IMG/VR virus record: IMGVR_UViG_3300042731_003759
Coordinates: 1-21,375 of that record
Direction: 5' to 3' (one strand)
Source: a virus
Length of the DNA stretch: 21,375 nucleotides
Of this stretch, positions 1-21,375 are shown piece after piece. The translations under genes were made by a program, and so were the position numbers. Under the pieces are notes generated by a model. It saw only the letters and a list, made by a program, of their open reading frames with translations, made no database searches and was not told the DNA's origin. Position 1 is the first letter of the stretch; each line of letters begins with the position of its first letter.

Positions 1-3000
1 GTACAGCCCTTGCAACATACAGTATTGGTGATATTATCTACGCACAATCTGCAAGTAGTTTAAACCAACTAGGCATTGGTAGAAGAAACAACTTCCTAAA
101 ATCAAATGGTACAGTACCTGAATGGGGTACAGCACTTGATCTTGCAGAAGGATTGGACGTTGGTTCTGCTGCACTTACTTCTAAGAGTACAGGTGCTGGT
201 AGAATTTACAATGAAAACGTAACCAGTTTACAAATTGGCGGAGCAGCAACAAATGTTAGAATTGGTAATGGAGATGGACCAAGAAACTTGTTCCCATTCA
301 TTGCAAGCTACGAAGCAACTGTTGCTAGAGACGTTGCTGTAAACTTAGAAAGTATTACACAAAGCACAAGTGAAGTAACACAAAACGGTGTTAACGAAGT
401 TATTATGAGTGACACCACTGGTATTCTTGCAGGTATGATTGTTACCGGTAGTACAAGTATTCCTTCAAATACAACTGTTAGTGGTGTTACAGATGATGCA
501 ATTTATTTGAGTAACGATACCACTGGTAGTATCTTATCAGCAACAACACTAGCATTCCAATATACTCCATTTACACTTGGTGTTTTACCAGGCGACACTG
601 TTAACATTGGTAGTAGTGGAGTAACAAACTTAGACGGCACATGGATTGTTAGTGGTGCAACCGAAACTGCTACTTCATTTACAATCAGAACAGACAATCT
701 TGTTACTGCATTAGCAACAGACATTCCTGCAGGTACTCACACAATCAACAACACATTGATTCTTAAAAATGAAACTGTTGTTGTTGGTAATGCAGAATCT
801 AGTGCCTCGCCTACAAACGGCACTATCAAAGGAACTGACGGATTTGGTACAGACGTTGCAGGTGGTGACATTACAATCGAAGCAGGTATCGGTACAGGTA
901 ACGCAACAGGTGGAGACTTTATTGTAAAAACTGGAGAAACAAGCACAACAAGTGATATTCAACAAACCTCAACAGAACGTTTAAGAATAGATACTGTTGG
1001 TAAGCTAACTGTAACAGGATATGCAGAATTTACAGATACAACTGGTGTTAAAGTGCCAGTTGGCACAACAGCACAACGTCCAGGCGAAACAGGTATTATC
1101 ACTCCAGTTGCGCAAGGTCAGATACGTTTCAACACAACAGATACAACGTTTGAAGGATACGATGGTACTAATTGGGGTTCACTGGGCGGTGTTAAAGATG
1201 TTGACCAAGACACATATATTGCCGCAGAAACCAGTGCAGGTGCAGACAACGATGAATTAGATTTTTATACAGCAGATGTTCAACGTATGCAAATCGGTGC
1301 AACAGGTAATCTTTCATTTGGTGACGGATTAAATAAATTTACTGTTGCTTACACTACAGGTAATGCAACTTTTGCAGGTGATTTAGTAGTAGACGGTGAC
1401 CTAACAATAAGTGGTACAACAACTACGCTAGATACAACAACATTGGTTGTCGAAGATAAAAATATCGAACTAGGTAACGTTGATACACCAACTGATATAA
1501 CTGCAAACGGCGGTGGTATTACATTAAAAGGCGATACAGATCATACTATTACTTGGAACGTAACGAATGATGCTTGGGAATTTACTGAAAGCATAAATGT
1601 TGCAAACACAATGGTATATCGTATCAATAATACAGATGTTCTCAGTGCAACTACACTAGGATCAGGTGTACAAAACAGTAGTCTTATTGGAGTAGGTACG
1701 CTTACCAGTGGTAGTATTACAACTACATTTGGCGATATTAATATTGGTACAAGCACATTTACAGGTAACGGTAGTGGACTTACTACACTAAATGCAAGTA
1801 ATTTGTCAAGTGGAACAGTTGCAGGTGCGAGACTAGGTGGCAACCAAACAATGGCGGGTGTAAAAACATTCAGCGATACGAGCGCAGCAACAAACACAAC
1901 AACTGGTGCTGTGCGTGTAGGCGGTGGTATGGGTGTTGCTGGAGATTTATATGCAGGTACATTAAACACAGCAGACGGCAGCGGCATTGATGGTTTAAAT
2001 GCAACAAACCTAGACAGCGGTACAGTACCAAATGCTAGAATTAGCGGTTCATATAGCAACTTAACAGGTACAGGTGCATTAGATGCAGGTAGTATTACAA
2101 GTAACTTTGGTAATATCAACATTGGTACAAATACATTTACAGGTGATGGTAGTGGGCTTTCAAACGTTTCAGCTGATACACTTGACGGTATTGATAGCAC
2201 ACAGTTCTTGCGTAGTGATGTAGCAGATACAATGGAAGCATTGCTTACTATTTCACACGCAGGTGATGAAATATTACGTTTGGCTGATACAAGTGCTACT
2301 GGTAATCCCTATATGAGCTTTTATCAATCTAGTACACGTAGAGCTTATATTCAATATGTAGACGCAGGCGATGTGCTGCAAATTGCCAACGAAGGAGGCA
2401 ACACTAGACTTAACCTAGATGGGGGTACTAGTGGACTACAATGGTACAATGGCACCGATACATATACTGTATGGCACAGTGGTAATGATGGAGCAGGCAG
2501 CGGTCTAGATGCAGATTTACTCGATGGTCTAAGTAGCGGCAGCTATATCCGCAGCGATGCAAATGACACGTTTACTGGTACATTAAGTGGTTCAGGTAGT
2601 ATTAACATCAGTGGTAACGTAACTGCTAATTCATTCAGCGGTGACGGTAGTGGACTTACAGGTATTACTGCCGATGATGCTAATACGCTTGACGGACTAG
2701 ACAGTACACAGTTTTTACGTAGTGATGTAGGAGCTACAAAGACTCAGGATCCATTAACCTTCAATGATAGTGTTCAATTAAGATTTGGTACAAGTGCCGA
2801 TTGGGAAATTTATCACAATGGCACTGACAACTTTATGGATCTTAACGTAGGTAATATGATTGTTAGAGATGGCAGTACAAATAGATTTACATTTGCTAGA
2901 ACTACTGGTAATTTTACAGCAACTGGCGAAGTTACAGCGTATTCAGATGTTACACTTAAAGATAATATTGAACTTGTTGCTGATCCATTGACAAAGATCT

Positions 3001-3236
3001 TAAATGTAAGAGGTGTAACATTTACACGCAAAGATCAAGAAGATCAGCGTGTACATATGGGTGTTATTGCTCAAGAGATAGAGGAATACTTCCCAGAAGT
3101 TGTACATACAAATGACGAAGGAATCAAGTCAGTAAACTACGGTGCAATGGCAGGTGCATTTATTGAAGCATTCAAAGCACAGCAAAAACAAATTGACGAC
3201 CTTACTGATTTGGTTAAAAAACTATTAGATAAGTAA
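1..3236 (+). CDS. Long tail fibre protein with C-terminal S74 intramolecular chaperone (5' end outside window)
   Basis: The reading frame is open from base 3, so the gene starts upstream; the first start-like codon (TTG at 153) is internal. The visible part is about 1077 residues of Gly/Thr/Ser/Asn-rich, low-lysine beta-repeat sequence typical of trimeric phage fibres, including GDGSGL, LDGxDSTQFLRSDV and WHSGN motifs. The last 100 residues carry a peptidase S74 / endosialidase-type chaperone: YSDVTLKDNI with Ser codon 2943-2945 and Lys codon 2958-2960 (Ser, then Lys five residues on, the family's catalytic dyad), then HMGVIAQEIEEYFPEVV, and a terminal coiled coil (AFKAQQKQIDDLTDLVKKLL). In known members this domain trimerises the fibre, then cuts itself off before the Ser. 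It probably binds a host surface receptor; the receptor is not readable. Confidence 0.85.
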   Translation, partial: TALATYSIGDIIYAQSASSLNQLGIGRRNNFLKSNGTVPEWGTALDLAEGLDVGSAALTSKSTGAGRIYNENVTSLQIGGAATNVRIGNGDGPRNLFPFIASYEATVARDVAVNLESITQSTSEVTQNGVNEVIMSDTTGILAGMIVTGSTSIPSNTTVSGVTDDAIYLSNDTTGSILSATTLAFQYTPFTLGVLPGDTVNIGSSGVTNLDGTWIVSGATETATSFTIRTDNLVTALATDIPAGTHTINNTLILKNETVVVGNAESSASPTNGTIKGTDGFGTDVAGGDITIEAGIGTGNATGGDFIVKTGETSTTSDIQQTSTERLRIDTVGKLTVTGYAEFTDTTGVKVPVGTTAQRPGETGIITPVAQGQIRFNTTDTTFEGYDGTNWGSLGGVKDVDQDTYIAAETSAGADNDELDFYTADVQRMQIGATGNLSFGDGLNKFTVAYTTGNATFAGDLVVDGDLTISGTTTTLDTTTLVVEDKNIELGNVDTPTDITANGGGITLKGDTDHTITWNVTNDAWEFTESINVANTMVYRINNTDVLSATTLGSGVQNSSLIGVGTLTSGSITTTFGDINIGTSTFTGNGSGLTTLNASNLSSGTVAGARLGGNQTMAGVKTFSDTSAATNTTTGAVRVGGGMGVAGDLYAGTLNTADGSGIDGLNATNLDSGTVPNARISGSYSNLTGTGALDAGSITSNFGNINIGTNTFTGDGSGLSNVSADTLDGIDSTQFLRSDVADTMEALLTISHAGDEILRLADTSATGNPYMSFYQSSTRRAYIQYVDAGDVLQIANEGGNTRLNLDGGTSGLQWYNGTDTYTVWHSGNDGAGSGLDADLLDGLSSGSYIRSDANDTFTGTLSGSGSINISGNVTANSFSGDGSGLTGITADDANTLDGLDSTQFLRSDVGATKTQDPLTFNDSVQLRFGTSADWEIYHNGTDNFMDLNVGNMIVRDGSTNRFTFARTTGNFTATGEVTAYSDVTLKDNIELVADPLTKILNVRGVTFTRKDQEDQRVHMGVIAQEIEEYFPEVVHTNDEGIKSVNYGAMAGAFIEAFKAQQKQIDDLTDLVKKLLDK
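1710..2159 (+). repeat. Internal direct repeats in the tail fibre gene
   Basis: Bases 1710-1781 and 2088-2159 are near-identical 72-base units, 378 bases (126 codons) apart. Both encode GSIT-x-x-FGxINIGTxTFTGxGSGL. A related GDGSGLTGI unit follows near 2640. A second repeated block, LDGxDSTQFLRSDV, is encoded near 2178-2222 and 2689-2730. These are fibre-shaft repeats and plausible substrates for recombination between fibre genes. Confidence 0.75.
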
Positions 3237-3311: not shown

Positions 3312-4874
3312 ATGGCATTACCAGCAACTGGCTCCACAATTACAATGACTGATATTGAACAGTATTTTACATTACAAGGTGAAGCAAGCAGTTTTGTATT
3401 AGGAATTTTAGGCACATACATTGGTATAGCCACTGGGACTACAATCAGTATGAGTGGTTCATTTGGCGGCTATGAAGATGTTAGTCTTCCTGTATATAGC
3501 TTAGCCAACAGATACGACTTAACAATAGACGGAACAACCTATCAAAGTGCTTATAGACGAACTGACGATGTTGAATGTGCAATATCAAGTTGGCCAGGTT
3601 ATGACGATGGTGTATTTTTGTTTAGATTTGACGGTACTAACGGTCATGTAATTAGGGTTCCATCTGCTGCAAGTTTAGAAGCAAATGGTAACGATGAACC
3701 TGAACATGTTTTAACATTCTCACAATCTCTCGGTGAGTTTCAGCCAGTAGAAATGCACGAAGGTTGGGCAAATCAAGACTGGTTTCTATATCAAGTTGGT
3801 GACACAATCTATCAGAGATCAACAGCAAACGGGTCGTTAATAAACAGTTTCAATTTTTCTAATCCTTCGGGCGGTAGACTTTTCCACACTTATAGACATA
3901 GCTGTGTAGCTAGATTAGGCGGTAATAATTTTGAAATTTGTTTTGTAGTTAGAGCCGATTCAAATAGTAACGGAAATTACAACGAAAGGTATTTAAGAGT
4001 TTATAATCAATCAGGAACTGTAGTGCAATATACTGCATTTCCTGACGGATTAACAGGCCAGAGTAATGAATCTAGCACTTTGCTGAATACCGTTTGTGAA
4101 GAATCAGCTTTAAATTCGCCAATTTGGTGGTTAGGTTTATATAATTCAACTAATAATCGCATATACAGAATTACTAGAACTTCAGGAACCTGGAGTGCAG
4201 CAATAAAAATAGACGGAAGTAGAACTAGTTTACTTGATGCACCAAATCCCAATGACCCTGAATTTCAAGATGGCACTCATACATTAAGACACGTATGCAT
4301 AGGCAGAGTTCAAACAAGTATTACACGTACAGTAGTAACAGCATTAATAGGCAACTCTAGTGCTTCTTACGGATATTTAAAAGGATGGAACCGAACACCA
4401 GCTGAATGGGCTGCTGGAGGTAGATCTTGGAGTGCTCATGACTGGCGCACACTTCGAATATCGAATCTCGAAAATCATTTTACAAGACACGCTGCTGTAT
4501 TTTATCAGGAAAATGCAACTGGTAAAAATCCAATAGCTGTTTGGATACCAGATCAGACATTAACAGCAAATCGCGAAAATACACTTTTACTAGCCTTAAA
4601 TTTACAAACAGGAGAAATAATAATAGACTTTAACCATGCACAAAACAACATTCCTGATCCAAATTTTATCGGTATAGTTGATCCAAGTTATTGTCCTAAA
4701 ATTATACCAATTTTTAATAGTGTTGGAAATTTTGATCGAGGCCCTGTACTACATCCTTCATATAATACTAGAGCTGTTTACATGGTGGCAGAGAGGTCAA
4801 ACTATTCAAATTATAATGAAACTTCAGAATTTCATAGCGAGGTTTACCAACTTGTTCTGCCATTTGATGTATAA
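3312..4874 (+). CDS. Putative tail accessory / adhesin protein
   Basis: 520 residues. The N-terminal 55 residues (MALPATGSTITMTDIEQYF ... TISMSGSFGG) resemble a short N-terminal module that I associate with marine phage structural proteins, perhaps an attachment domain; this is from memory, not a search. The remainder is beta-rich with many aromatic and Asn/Gly residues, has no signal peptide or membrane segment, and shows irregular strand-turn blocks that could be a beta-propeller or similar adhesin fold. Start ATG at 3312 has AGGA about 8 bases upstream. Lying directly after the tail fibre, a host-recognition role is plausible, but no catalytic motif is recognised and the function is unproven. 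Confidence 0.5.
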   Translation: MALPATGSTITMTDIEQYFTLQGEASSFVLGILGTYIGIATGTTISMSGSFGGYEDVSLPVYSLANRYDLTIDGTTYQSAYRRTDDVECAISSWPGYDDGVFLFRFDGTNGHVIRVPSAASLEANGNDEPEHVLTFSQSLGEFQPVEMHEGWANQDWFLYQVGDTIYQRSTANGSLINSFNFSNPSGGRLFHTYRHSCVARLGGNNFEICFVVRADSNSNGNYNERYLRVYNQSGTVVQYTAFPDGLTGQSNESSTLLNTVCEESALNSPIWWLGLYNSTNNRIYRITRTSGTWSAAIKIDGSRTSLLDAPNPNDPEFQDGTHTLRHVCIGRVQTSITRTVVTALIGNSSASYGYLKGWNRTPAEWAAGGRSWSAHDWRTLRISNLENHFTRHAAVFYQENATGKNPIAVWIPDQTLTANRENTLLLALNLQTGEIIIDFNHAQNNIPDPNFIGIVDPSYCPKIIPIFNSVGNFDRGPVLHPSYNTRAVYMVAERSNYSNYNETSEFHSEVYQLVLPFDV

Positions 4875-4931: not shown

Positions 4932-5309
4932 ATGAAAACACTTTACGAAGTGCTAAATGTAGATTTAGCGCAAGAATATACAAAGGCTCGTAAAAAAGCT
5001 GTACTTGAAACACTTGAACTTGATGCGCAAACAGAAATTGCTGCAAAAAAAGCAATTGACGATATGATTATACCCGAAGACGATGATAGACTACATTGGA
5101 TTCAAAAAATTGGTAACGCTGCTGGTGCAGATTTGTTAACTATTGGAAAAGTACAACCTGAAAATATGTTAGCAATGGCTGCACTTTCAGAAGAAGATTT
5201 TCAAGAATGTGTAAAAGTAGCAACAGGTTCAGCTAGACGTTGGAATGAGTTAACAGTAGCAGCGGAAAAAGAACTTAACAAGGACTTAGTACCAAGCACT
5301 ATGATTTAA
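4932..5309 (+). CDS. Small unknown protein, first gene of the glycosyltransferase unit
   Basis: 125 residues, acidic and mostly helical by composition, with no signal peptide or membrane segment. I do not recognise a family. Features: an Ala/Lys/Glu-rich N-terminal helix, an EDDDRLHW stretch near the middle, and a C-terminal helical part (SEEDFQECVKVATGSARRW). AGGAG lies 6 bases before the ATG. Its stop overlaps the next start as TAATG, so translation is probably coupled to the glycosyltransferase, suggesting a shared process. The FQECVKVATGSARR segment loosely recalls FRECAKLASRTIARQ in the C-terminal part of the 874-residue protein two genes on; this may be meaningful or chance. Confidence 0.6.
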   Translation: MKTLYEVLNVDLAQEYTKARKKAVLETLELDAQTEIAAKKAIDDMIIPEDDDRLHWIQKIGNAAGADLLTIGKVQPENMLAMAALSEEDFQECVKVATGSARRWNELTVAAEKELNKDLVPSTMI

Positions 5310-5893
5310 TGCAATTAAGTATTTGTATTCCTGCAAGAGATACTGTTCATACAGGATTTGCCAAGAGTTTGGTAAATCTTACAAACAAACTTACTGCAAA
5401 CAATGTAAATTTTAATTTACATATTATTTGTGGCAGTGTCATTTCACAAAGTCGTATTGATTTAGCTAATGAAGCATTAGATAGTGGATGTACTCATATA
5501 TTGTGGTTAGATAGTGATATTCACTTTTCATCAAATATATTTGATAAACTTATTTTGCACAACAAAGATATTGTGGCTGCAACGTACAGCACCCGTTACA
5601 GTCCTAATGTAAGTGTTGCATTTGTAGATCCTGACAACATTGATCTTAGATTAAATGCTACCACAGGTTTACACAAGGTATGGGCAGTAGGAATGGGTTG
5701 TATGTTAACTTCTGCAAGTGTGTACGATGAATTACCAAAACCGTGGTTTGCCCACGAATATAATAAAAATTTAGATAACTTCAGTGGCGAAGATATATAC
5801 TTTTGTAATCAAGCAATGCATCATGGAATAGATGTTTATGTTGATGCAGATATAAAATTAGCACACTACGGAACGAAAGCAATCTTACTATGA
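5309..5893 (+). CDS. GT-A fold glycosyltransferase
   Basis: 194 residues. It opens with a family-2-like strand and nucleotide-sugar loop (LSICIPARDT, residues 3-12). A DxD metal/sugar-nucleotide motif follows at Asp68-Ser-Asp70 in ILWLDSDIHF, then a GED motif at 160-162 (the acceptor-side acid of GT-A enzymes) and a late His186 (LAHYGT) that could complete the metal site. Short but apparently complete. It should transfer a sugar from a nucleotide donor; donor and acceptor are not readable. Targets could be phage virion proteins, DNA bases or host glycans. Its start overlaps the previous stop (TAATG) and its stop overlaps the next start (ATGA), so it is translationally coupled to the repeat protein that follows. 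Confidence 0.8.
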   Translation: MQLSICIPARDTVHTGFAKSLVNLTNKLTANNVNFNLHIICGSVISQSRIDLANEALDSGCTHILWLDSDIHFSSNIFDKLILHNKDIVAATYSTRYSPNVSVAFVDPDNIDLRLNATTGLHKVWAVGMGCMLTSASVYDELPKPWFAHEYNKNLDNFSGEDIYFCNQAMHHGIDVYVDADIKLAHYGTKAILL

Positions 5894-8514
5894 AAGTATT
5901 TGACAAATTTGGAATAGACCCACAAAGTACATTTAGTGCATTTAGTACTATGAAAAATAACGTTGTAAATCATGCACCTATTTTGTATGTAGATGATACA
6001 GATGATTTGAGTATTTTAGGCAAGCAACAGTTTGGCACTAGATACGTCTGGCTAGTCGATAAATCAATTACTACATATGATAGCTTTCCGTGGTACTTTA
6101 TGCCAGAGACAAAAACTAAAAAAATACACACGTTTCCATATGTACACAAAAACAGTAGAAAAATAATTTCTTATGATAAAGTTAAGCTAGTGCCTACTAA
6201 CGCTCATTTGAATAATTTTGAATCTGTAAAAGAAAGATATATTTGTGGACACTACGATCCTTATTTTGGCAAAGACAAATTTGATATTTTTTACATTGGC
6301 GAAGATAAAACAGTCTACGATAAACTCATTGCTAGAGAATTTGACGTTCAAGTGGTTGACAATGTTGAACAGGCTAAAAGTCAAAGTTTTACAGATTTGT
6401 TTTGGATTGTGTACGACGATACCGATGTAAGAGAAACATTTAAATTCAGTTACAAACCAGATGAGTGGAGTTATGATATTCCTCATGTATTTGGCAACGG
6501 CGACATAGATCAATTAGATGGTATTGTGCTGATGCCAAGACATTATAATGCCACTGATAAAGAAATAAAACACAGATTCTTTGTTAACAAAAAAGAAGTG
6601 CGTATTATGGCAAGTGTTCCAAAAAAATACGATCAATTTGTTGTTAACAATTATTATGATTATAAAAACGCATTAGAAAAATCAACTACAGAAATGTTTT
6701 GGGCATATAACAATCAAATTGTAGTTGATGATGATTTTAAATTTGACTACTATATAAGTCATCATAGCAGTGATCGTAAAAGTAATCATGCTTGGTTAAA
6801 TGCCAACAACTACAATGGCATATTTTTGTTCAGCAAAAATTCTCCTGTAACAGAAGAAGAAATAGTTTTCAAAGATTTAAAAGAAAAAATTCTTCACGAA
6901 GAAATAGCAAGTATGCCAAAAGATTTTGAAAAGTTTACCATTGATACATATGAACAATATAAAAGTGCATTAGAAAGTTGTGGAACAGATATGTTCTGGC
7001 TAATCCCTAGTGATGTTATACCTGCTGAAGATTTTGAGTGGGATACATATTTTCATAAGCAAGAAAAATTTGATATGAAAACCAATCACGTGTTTTTAAA
7101 CGGTAAATCTTTTGACGGAATTGCTTTAATGTGTACAAAAGCAGAAGTGTCTGACAAAGAGTTTGAACATAGATTTTACGTAAACAAGAAAGAACACAAA
7201 GTTGTAGCAAGTAATCCAAAACCATATGAAAAATATACTATTAATTCTTATGAAGATTATACCGAAGCATTGTATAATACTCAAAGTGAAATGTTTTGGG
7301 GTGTGCCTAGTGATGTAGAAGTTGAAGATGATTTCAATTTTGATATGTATTTTGATCATCACAACACATACGATAGAAATATAAATCACGTATTTTTAAA
7401 CAACGATACATACGATGGTATAGTGTTGTTTAGTAAAAATGTTTTGGTTAGCGAAAAAGAAATTGAACACAGATTTTTAATTAAGAAGAAAGAATGGGAT
7501 ATAGTAGCAAGCAAACCTAAGCCATATCCAATTTACACAGTAAATGATTATACCGATTATCTAAACGCAAAAAAAGATTGCAATTACGATATGTTTTGGA
7601 TGGTAAACGATAGCTTCTTGCCAGTGCCTGATTTTAATTGGAACTTCTATATAGATCATCATAATCAATACGAACGAAAAATAAATCACGTATGGAAAAA
7701 CGGAGATTTTTATGATGGCATTGCTTTGACAAGTACAAAACTTAGTATCAGCCAGCGTGAAATTGATTATAGATTTTTTGTTACAAAAAAAGAGTACCTT
7801 GAAGTCGGCAGTAATCCAAAACCATATGACATTGTGTTTATCAGTAATGGCGAACCCAATGCAGATGAAAACTTTGATCTGCTCAGTGAAAAGTTTCCAA
7901 GAGCAAAACGTGTTATGGACATTAAGGGTATTCATGCAGCACATAAACGTGCAGCAGAATTAGTAGAAACAGATATGTTTTGGGTAGTAGACGGTGATGC
8001 AGAAATTATAGATGGATTTGATTTTGATTACTATGTTCCTGCATACGATATTGATGGAAAAGATACAGTGCATGTATGGCGTAGTTTAAATCCTATCAAT
8101 GGACTAGTATACGGCTATGGTGGTGTAAAATTACTTCCTACAAATTTAACACGTAATATGGACGAATCTACAACAGATATGACCACTAGTATCAGCGACA
8201 AATTTAAAGGCATCGAAGAGATGAGTAATACTAGTGCGTTTAATACTGATTCGTTTAGTGCATGGCGCAGTGGATTTAGAGAATGTGCAAAATTAGCAAG
8301 CCGTACTATTGCTAGACAAAAAGATGAAGAAACTGAATTTAGATTAGAGGCTTGGTGTACTAGAGGAGCAGACAAACCCTTTGGTAAAGCAGCAATTGCA
8401 GGTGCTATAGCTGGAAAAGAGTTTGGAGAACTCAACAAAGATAACGTAGAAGAACTTGCAAAAATCAACGACTTCGAATGGCTAAAAGAAGAATTTAAGA
8501 AATTATATCAATAA
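5890..8514 (+). CDS. Giant tandem-repeat protein with degenerate glycosyltransferase-like units
   Basis: 874 residues, soluble, rich in Asp, Tyr, Phe, Trp and Lys. A motif (T-D/E)MFW recurs at residues 170 (LFW), 269, 368, 468, 568 and 696. Four contiguous units (residues 248-346, 347-446, 447-546, 547-646) are 99-100 residues long. Each runs: Tyr-rich helix, MFW, Asp-containing loop, FxFDxYxxHH, NHVFLN, YDGI-hydrophobic strand, EIEHRFxxxKKE, PKPY. Residues 647-780 repeat the plan but with an intact DGD (701-703), like a GT-A DxD, and a KLLPTN strand; an N-terminal KLVPTN copy is near residue 98. The last 100 residues form a distinct helical domain. Together with the coupled glycosyltransferase upstream, a glycosylation or glycan-binding role is inferred. 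The 3' end overlaps the convergent Nudix gene by 20 bases. Confidence 0.7.
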   Translation: MKVFDKFGIDPQSTFSAFSTMKNNVVNHAPILYVDDTDDLSILGKQQFGTRYVWLVDKSITTYDSFPWYFMPETKTKKIHTFPYVHKNSRKIISYDKVKLVPTNAHLNNFESVKERYICGHYDPYFGKDKFDIFYIGEDKTVYDKLIAREFDVQVVDNVEQAKSQSFTDLFWIVYDDTDVRETFKFSYKPDEWSYDIPHVFGNGDIDQLDGIVLMPRHYNATDKEIKHRFFVNKKEVRIMASVPKKYDQFVVNNYYDYKNALEKSTTEMFWAYNNQIVVDDDFKFDYYISHHSSDRKSNHAWLNANNYNGIFLFSKNSPVTEEEIVFKDLKEKILHEEIASMPKDFEKFTIDTYEQYKSALESCGTDMFWLIPSDVIPAEDFEWDTYFHKQEKFDMKTNHVFLNGKSFDGIALMCTKAEVSDKEFEHRFYVNKKEHKVVASNPKPYEKYTINSYEDYTEALYNTQSEMFWGVPSDVEVEDDFNFDMYFDHHNTYDRNINHVFLNNDTYDGIVLFSKNVLVSEKEIEHRFLIKKKEWDIVASKPKPYPIYTVNDYTDYLNAKKDCNYDMFWMVNDSFLPVPDFNWNFYIDHHNQYERKINHVWKNGDFYDGIALTSTKLSISQREIDYRFFVTKKEYLEVGSNPKPYDIVFISNGEPNADENFDLLSEKFPRAKRVMDIKGIHAAHKRAAELVETDMFWVVDGDAEIIDGFDFDYYVPAYDIDGKDTVHVWRSLNPINGLVYGYGGVKLLPTNLTRNMDESTTDMTTSISDKFKGIEEMSNTSAFNTDSFSAWRSGFRECAKLASRTIARQKDEETEFRLEAWCTRGADKPFGKAAIAGAIAGKEFGELNKDNVEELAKINDFEWLKEEFKKLYQ
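6631..7827 (+). repeat. Four head-to-tail 100-codon repeats
   Basis: Units at 6631-6927 (297 bases), 6928-7227, 7228-7527 and 7528-7827 (300 bases each), delimited by the PKPY-type junction. A more diverged unit precedes (about 6283-6630) and an intact-motif unit follows (from 7828). Conserved positions between units include MFW, NHV-aromatic, (Y/F)DGI and HRF. Protein conservation is clear while DNA is diverged, so the duplications are old and under selection. Confidence 0.8.
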
Positions 8515-19944: not shown

Positions 19945-20499
19945 ATGAAAAATTTTGCTGATTATTTAACAGAATCAAAGAAAACATATGAATTTAAAAT
20001 TGGCATTGCAGGTGACAGACCTGATGGGTGCGAAGACATGATTGAAACAGGACTACAAAAGTTTGGCATTACAAAAATGTCAGCTGGTAAGAAAACTCCT
20101 ATTCAAGAACGTCCTTTAGATTTTCCACAGTTAGAAAACACAGATGTTATGTACTATGAAGTTGAGCTTACATACCCAACTACTGTACAAGTATTACAAG
20201 AATACTTAGGTGGTGTATGCAGTGTTCCTCAAAGTCACATTATTGTACGTAATCCAAACGAACCACAAGAACTATATCAGCAAGAAGATGCAAAAGACGA
20301 ATACACAGCAAAACTAACACAAGAAGAACTAGAAAGCGAGAGCGCACAAGCCGACGCAGGTTCAGATCGTGTAATGAACTTGTTGAAAGAATTAGAAACA
20401 GCACGTAAAGAAAGAGACAACGATTATGTTGGCGAAGCGCCTACAGGTGATAGCAAAGACATTAGCGATGCTGAAAACAGTAAGGCGGTATTATCATGA
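19945..20499 (+). CDS. Probable prohead-targeted internal/core protein
   Basis: 184 residues. The first ten, MKNFADYLTE, match position by position the T4 capsid-targeting leader MKTYQEFIAE of internal protein III in chemical character, and end in L-x-E, the T4 gp21 prohead-protease consensus (L/I-x-E). Residues 12-110 form a compact alpha/beta domain (YEFKIGIAGDRPDGCEDMI, GKKTPIQERPLDFPQ, MYYEVELTYPTTVQVLQEYL, SHIIVRNP). The rest is an acidic Glu/Asp/Ala-rich tail. This fits a protein packed in the prohead and trimmed during maturation. T4 genes 67/68 are alternatives by location; I see no clear match to either. The stop overlaps the next start as ATGA. Confidence 0.6.
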   Translation: MKNFADYLTESKKTYEFKIGIAGDRPDGCEDMIETGLQKFGITKMSAGKKTPIQERPLDFPQLENTDVMYYEVELTYPTTVQVLQEYLGGVCSVPQSHIIVRNPNEPQELYQQEDAKDEYTAKLTQEELESESAQADAGSDRVMNLLKELETARKERDNDYVGEAPTGDSKDISDAENSKAVLS

Positions 20500-21375
20500 A
20501 ACGTAAACAAGTAATCGAAACAGAACAACTAAATGAAAATCCACTAGTGCTTGGATTAATGGCTGCACTAGTAGGTATGGGTTTAGAAAAAGAAAAAGCA
20601 AAAAAAGCAGCAGCTCAAGCAGTTGATCAAGCACAATCAGGTAAAGCAGCACCAGCAGCACCTGCTACAGGCGGTGCATATAAAGATGTTATGAAACAAG
20701 GTAGCAAAGGCGAAGGTGTAAAGCAGTTACAAATAAAACTAGGTATGTCAGGTAGTAAAGCTGATGGTATTTTTGGACCTGCTACTGCAAAAGCTGTAAA
20801 AACATTTCAAAAAAGTCAAGGACTTAAAGTTGATGGTGTTGTTGGTCCAGAAACAAAAGCAAGAATTGAAAAACTAGCCGGCGATTACAAATACGACGGA
20901 CCAGAAAAAATGTTTCCCGATATGTCTCCAGGACCGCTATTTGGAAAAGGACCAAAGTCTGAAAGCGTAGACGAAAATACAGACAATCAGCTTAACGAAG
21001 CAAGCATCAATATTAATGGTGCTGATGCAAGCGAAGTAGCAGAAATACTACGTATGATGCAACTTGCAGGAGCCGACGGTGCTAAAGTAGTTGGAGCAGA
21101 TGATATTAATCCTGGACCTAAGCCGTGTCCAATTTGCGGTAAGATTCACGGTCCAAGTCAACCAATGGGCGGTTGTGGTGCAAAACCAAAAGAGCCAGAA
21201 ATGGGCGATATGATTCGTATGATGGCACCAGGCGAAGCAATGGAAGAAGAAGCCGATGATGGTGATTTCCAAGATGCAAGCACAGAACCAGATGAAGAAT
21301 ATGCAAACGATGTAAGTGCAAGTATTCCATCAGGTAACGACCTACACAAAGAAAAAGGTTCTTATCCAGCAACAG
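20496..21375 (+). CDS. Peptidoglycan-binding-domain protein of the prohead region (3' end outside window)
   Basis: 293 codons visible; it starts by ATGA overlap with the preceding gene. Layout: a basic N-terminus with QLNE (11-14), a hydrophobic helix (LVLGLMAALVGMGL), an Ala-rich Lys/Gln helix, then a PG_binding_1-type domain at about 66-127 (VKQLQIKLG ... ADGIFGPAT ... VKTFQKSQGLKVDGVVGPET). Next come an acidic linker with QLNE-A (another L-x-E site), SEVAEILRMMQLAG, and a possible zinc site C211-x2-C214-x3-H218-x8-C227. PG-binding modules anchor proteins to cell walls. Finding one among head-morphogenesis genes suggests an internal or head-delivered protein, or a virion-linked wall-active factor. 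The frame is still open at the window end. Confidence 0.65.
   Translation, partial: MKRKQVIETEQLNENPLVLGLMAALVGMGLEKEKAKKAAAQAVDQAQSGKAAPAAPATGGAYKDVMKQGSKGEGVKQLQIKLGMSGSKADGIFGPATAKAVKTFQKSQGLKVDGVVGPETKARIEKLAGDYKYDGPEKMFPDMSPGPLFGKGPKSESVDENTDNQLNEASININGADASEVAEILRMMQLAGADGAKVVGADDINPGPKPCPICGKIHGPSQPMGGCGAKPKEPEMGDMIRMMAPGEAMEEEADDGDFQDASTEPDEEYANDVSASIPSGNDLHKEKGSYPAT

Follow-up and report, generated by a model that had tools for sequence, protein, structure and literature searches.

A protein built of many enzyme-like units, of which only the last keeps its catalytic motif, raises a simple question: what are the other copies for? Such a protein is encoded in the window analysed here, the whole 21,375-nucleotide stretch of IMG/VR record IMGVR_UViG_3300042731_003759, which is a fragment of a myovirus with a tail sheath most like those of the jumbo phages Phosso and Atu_ph07. 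The repeat glycosyltransferase-like protein, or REP, is the 874-residue product of an open reading frame at 5890..8514 on the forward strand, as an earlier note made from the sequence alone had described it, and this reading frame has homologues at 49 loci. The earlier note took the protein to be an enzyme core duplicated into non-catalytic copies.

Modular architecture of REP

REP consists of seven related modules. The first, a degenerate N-terminal module (residues ~31-115, 5980..6234), had been overlooked by the earlier note. It is supported by pairwise z values of up to 10 against the terminal unit, by unit-HMM matches at the same position in L017, L021, L029, L032, L051 and others, and by its first Asp, which is kept in 28 of 31 homologues (DPD in 3 of the 31). 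Five repeats follow, each with another triplet where the DxD motif should be: unit 1 (residues 131-242, 6280..6615; YDD), which is of a longer beta-alpha-beta-alpha type, unit 2 (residues 243-341, 6616..6912; NNQ), unit 3 (residues 342-440, 6913..7209; PSD), unit 4 (residues 441-540, 7210..7509; PSD) and unit 5 (residues 541-640, 7510..7809; NDS). The array ends in the terminal GT-A module (residues 641-785, 7810..8244) and a helical C-terminal part (residues 786-874, 8245..8511) that is missing in every repeat. All of these lie on the forward strand.

Comparison of REP with itself gives peaks at offsets of 100 (score 623) and 200 (388), then at 199, 299 and 99, and the [LM]FW motifs are spaced as previously reported, at residues 170 (LFW), 269, 368, 468, 568 and 696. 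The only full DxD is likewise that of the terminal unit, a DGD at residues 701-703 (7990..7998) which is the predicted metal and nucleotide-sugar motif. Among the triplets earlier placed opposite it, NNQ and NDS hold in the aligned columns but SDV was read one column off; the last Asp is retained in units 1, 3 and 4. Against shuffled sequence, units 1-5 reach z values of 6-52 with each other and 6.5-17 with the terminal unit. Values so far above those of shuffles rule out chance as the source of the array, and its recurrence in 49 IMG/VR loci does the same for an assembly artefact.

A terminal GT-A module with conserved motifs

The full-length protein was modelled with AlphaFold from 24 relatives (mean pLDDT 84.8, pTM 0.59; about 82-95 per ten-residue block across residues 240-643). 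In the predicted structure, residues 643-785 align with B4GALNT1 over 140 residues (VIA-align Z 11.8, rmsd 2.7), followed by the fucosyltransferase WrtF (Z 10.6) and the PBCV-1 capsid glycosyltransferase (Z 9.8); the remaining matches are nearly all GT-A enzymes or sister nucleotidyltransferases such as IspD. A Foldseek search with the full model agrees, returning GT-A-type matches, and the GT-A fold proposed for the terminal unit is thus borne out in prediction. Relatives of this module occur in hundreds of loci. Across 83 distinct terminal domains, six residues are invariant: D701, D703, K747 and D763, together with R797 and E798 of the helical C-terminal part. GG744-745 is nearly invariant.

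Other features of GT-A enzymes include an xED base, a G-loop and a C-His (PMC7185993). The candidate xED Asp, D787, placed by sequence rather than by residue-level structural alignment, is present in 80 of the 83 domains; it was dropped as an invariant catalytic base, as it falls short of invariance here and is replaced by Ser in 22 of 27 paralogues. From the state of DxD in each, the terminal module appears to be active and the repeats inactive: among the units compared, DGD or DAD occurs in 66/66 terminal units. The conserved positions 701, 703 and 798 do not in themselves prove catalysis. Neither REP nor its C-terminal part matches Glycos_transf_2 (PF00535) above the curated cut-off, and the best score among 9 REP homologues, E 0.0063, is also below it. 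Searches of Pfam, PHROGs, NCBIfam, PDB sequences and INPHARED gave no match good enough to place REP in a known family.

Degenerate repeats under purifying selection

The repeats are related to the terminal module by sequence, and an HMM of the latter matches them down to about 1e-7 in L115. Unit 4, modelled singly (residues 441-546) from 80 diverse units, gives a confident structure (pLDDT 95.5, pTM 0.87), which matches GT-A or nucleotidyltransferase folds almost exclusively, although at modest scores (Z no higher than 6.0, below the tool's guide value of 8; Foldseek E never below 0.12). The best of these matches align 95-105 of the 106 residues to GT-A enzymes, and among viral models the nearest is that of an 804-residue protein, without annotation, from an uncultured phage. 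An unrelated beta or helical fold, which would have spoken against the earlier interpretation, did not appear. With fold scores this modest, common descent of repeats and terminal module rests mainly on sequence and on the order of secondary structure elements. In the full model, unit 1 and the terminal unit begin with beta-alpha-beta-alpha-beta and units 2-5 with beta-alpha-beta only, after which the later strands are alike in all units and close with a single long one. It is well supported, from sequence and model together and not from the fold match alone, that the repeats are GT-A cores in which one beta-alpha element is gone, as is the helical C-terminus.

Their inactivity is equally well supported. 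The first Asp of DxD is found in none of 256 distinct repeat units (last Asp in 164/256), in contrast to the terminal domains, where DxD is present in 83/83, and the idea of non-catalytic copies thereby gains firm ground. Nor is there a second unit with an intact DxD, as would be found in active multi-domain glycosyltransferases, the only exceptions being the few relatives with DPD in the N-terminal module. The repeats nonetheless have conserved positions of their own: a mid-unit His in 250/256, and E524 and G510 in 80/80 units. In eight pairs, dN/dS is about 0.05-0.10 in the repeats and 0.02-0.06 in the terminal module; the pair L029/L017 was left out, its dN above 1 along the array pointing to a frame or alignment fault. 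Given values so near those of the terminal module, the repeats are under strong purifying selection and are not decaying.

Distribution and growth of the family

At least 594 IMG/VR stretches contain the terminal domain. In the loci sampled, complete REP-type proteins range from 228 to 1,855 residues with 0, 1, 2, 3, 4, 5, 6, 9, 10 or 16 recognised repeats, and each of 21 records examined has one such gene. No usable match was obtained by tblastn in 50,697 named phages (INPHARED) with REP, its C-terminal domain, a repeat-free form, the 16-repeat form or a paralogue as queries; a lone match to the C-terminal domain had E 4, which is chance level, while the neighbouring glycosyltransferase GT194, used as a control, matched 116 records of the same collection. 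The divergence of the units was too great for a repeat-profile scan of viral contigs. REP relatives lie on just 4 MAG contigs (L134, 335 kb, PBPT01000016.1; L135; L136; L137). These MAGs are labelled as bacteria, and a search of them for a tail sheath found none; their REP-type genes may be of phage or of host origin.

Units are position-specific. In the unit tree, the terminal units are monophyletic (support 1.0), the nearest neighbour of each first unit is another first unit (17/17), and units 1-5 of the window type have their counterparts in units 1 and 6-9 of L037, a protein with nine repeats. The 16-repeat protein (L115:1126-6690) shows a three-unit higher-order repeat, with 52% identity at an offset of 301 residues and 54% at 1001, and its array appears to have grown largely by copying of three-unit blocks. 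A paralogue of the terminal domain, ~300 residues long with D.D in 27/27, lies beside or near REP in most records of the second of two groups of phages described below (for example L103:3476-4360, L112:1770-2663 and L115:6644-7567) and in L081:5047-6687 forms a fusion with the terminal domain. Two homologues (L073:4282-7629 and L077:4285-7632) have an additional C-terminal domain of ~230 residues. In L042 (7878-8001), a frame change splits REP at the junction of repeat 5 with the terminal module, which may be a sequencing error or a real split.

Gene neighbourhood

REP lies downstream of a giant tail fibre, the C-terminal part of which is encoded at 3..3236, as judged from PHROG fibre and structural matches and from relatives. 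Between the two are a 520-residue protein with no assigned function, present in some relatives (3312..4874), a 125-residue protein that is a conserved partner in the cluster (phrog_1409, 4932..5309) and the 194-residue DxD glycosyltransferase GT194 (phrog_1574, Anp1-like, 5309..5893), all on the forward strand. The coupling of GT194 to REP, already claimed before, is upheld by a 4-base ATGA overlap at the REP start and by conserved synteny. In group 1 (L001-L077) the order is fibre, optional 520-residue frame, 125-residue protein, GT194 and REP, then nudix, sheath stabiliser and a virion protein on the opposite strand, followed by neck and sheath, and it is constant as far as the contigs extend. 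By eye, a further frame starting at 20496 and cut at the window end (20496-21374) contains a peptidoglycan-binding-like repeat segment (KQLQIKLG...).

In group 2 (L078-L123), phages unrelated to group 1, REP likewise lies downstream of tail-fibre genes, and its other neighbours are radical SAM enzymes and, in some, a UDP-glucose dehydrogenase. Radical SAM genes near such REP genes are seen at L132:11945-17146 (three, downstream of fibre genes), L127:13394-15556 (with a B12-binding domain) and L126:15845-16801. In record G001 (L130:1-18284), two giant fibre-like frames (at least 2,921 and 3,133 residues) stand in tandem upstream of the cluster. The few complete fibres did not show whether fibre length goes with the number of repeats: those of 5-repeat records vary only from 3,181 to 3,590 residues, and in the 3-repeat and 9-repeat records the fibres are cut by contig ends. 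REP, GT194 and the 125-residue protein lack transmembrane segments (their 19-residue Kyte-Doolittle means peak at 0.7-1.0) and in this differ from what is expected of Gtr-type membrane modification of O-antigen.

Proposed function and alternatives

On balance, we lean towards REP being a glycosyltransferase of the virion, and of the fibre in particular, with a live terminal domain and dead modules that dock the substrate or partners. Virion glycosylation is the first choice because REP is placed after the fibre in two unrelated groups of phages and lacks transmembrane segments, and we hold this preference with moderate confidence. The C-terminal ~230 residues would make up a catalytic domain that is complete in its GT-A fold and its DxD, as predicted from fold and motif. 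The upstream modules, as shortened non-catalytic copies, would form an expandable surface chain kept by selection, most likely to dock an acceptor protein that is long and repetitive, or else partner enzymes. Synteny suggests the virion as acceptor, with the giant fibre encoded just upstream as the first candidate, and REP and GT194 may modify it jointly. Both the fibre as target and the docking role of the repeats are what we infer from these data. A broader and more tentative idea, possible though short of an even chance, is that an enzyme fold has here become a true repeat protein: the chain of dead GT-A copies reads or holds the giant fibre, the end copy transfers the sugar, and phages tune glycosylation through gain and loss of repeats.

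REP might instead modify a surface polysaccharide of the host, such as the O-chain, and so block co-infecting phages, with the repeats binding the growing glycan. We regard this as unlikely. In its favour, glycosyltransferases in the host-recognition cluster of pelagimyophages, within the VrlC-gp14 interval, are read as O-chain modifiers in PMC7029224, whose authors favour host O-chain modification for similar clusters, and the sugar-related dehydrogenase and radical SAM genes of group 2 would suit such a role. Against it stand the lack of transmembrane segments in REP, GT194 and the 125-residue protein and the setting in the lineage of the window, where the cluster sits among virion genes with no recognised sugar-nucleotide or flippase gene.

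An array that is purely structural, a spacer or virion part that binds no ligand and matters only by its length, would sit well with a copy number of 0 to 16 and with the block copying in L115. It is improbable in view of the strong sequence constraint on the repeats, the mid-unit His, E524 and G510 included, and of the position-specific character of the units. Glycosylation of modified bases in phage DNA is a frequent role of phage glycosyltransferases (reviewed in PMC12619734), but REP lies among virion genes, and the window contains no recognised gene for base modification; we give this role very little credence.

Comparison with known systems

An expandable repeat protein made of dead enzyme copies seems not to have been described before; a literature search covering few subscription journals turned up no account of degenerate GT-A units in tandem arrays. 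Single inactive glycosyltransferase scaffolds are already known, but for arrays of shortened dead copies no report was found. The REP family is common in aquatic viromes; it turned up in none of the 50,697 named phages, so annotation based on cultured phages misses it. REP suggests a testable route to virion glycosylation in uncultivated phages and is possibly a new type of repeat scaffold.

The terminal module shares its predicted fold and the invariant DxD with GT-A glycosyltransferases such as K4CP, WrtF, SunS, B4GALNT1 and ppGalNAc-T, which are among its structural matches, but it lies outside Pfam (above cut-off), PHROGs and NCBIfam, and as many as 16 degenerate copies stand before it. 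The chondroitin polymerase of E. coli K4 has two complete GT-A domains, both of which are active. REP resembles that enzyme (2z86) in having several GT-A units in one chain but differs in having one intact module and many short dead ones. A precedent for an inactive GT-A scaffold is COSMC (C1GALT1C1), a pseudo-GT-A protein without DxD and xED that acts as a scaffold or chaperone for T-synthase (PMC7185993). The REP repeats are similarly GT-A copies without catalytic motifs that are maintained by selection, but COSMC is a single, complete and separate protein, whereas these are shortened tandem copies of ~100 residues inside an enzyme. The host-recognition cluster of pelagimyophages likewise combines fibres, glycosyltransferases and radical SAM genes in the interval from fibre to neck; the part of PMC7029224 available reports no degenerate glycosyltransferase repeat arrays, and the sheath of the window phage is nearest those of Phosso and Atu_ph07. 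Although it has no repeats and only 11-13% sequence identity, the capsid glycosyltransferase of PBCV-1 (2p73), with Z 9.8 to the terminal module and 5.2 to a repeat, offers a viral GT-A enzyme that serves a virion glycoprotein.
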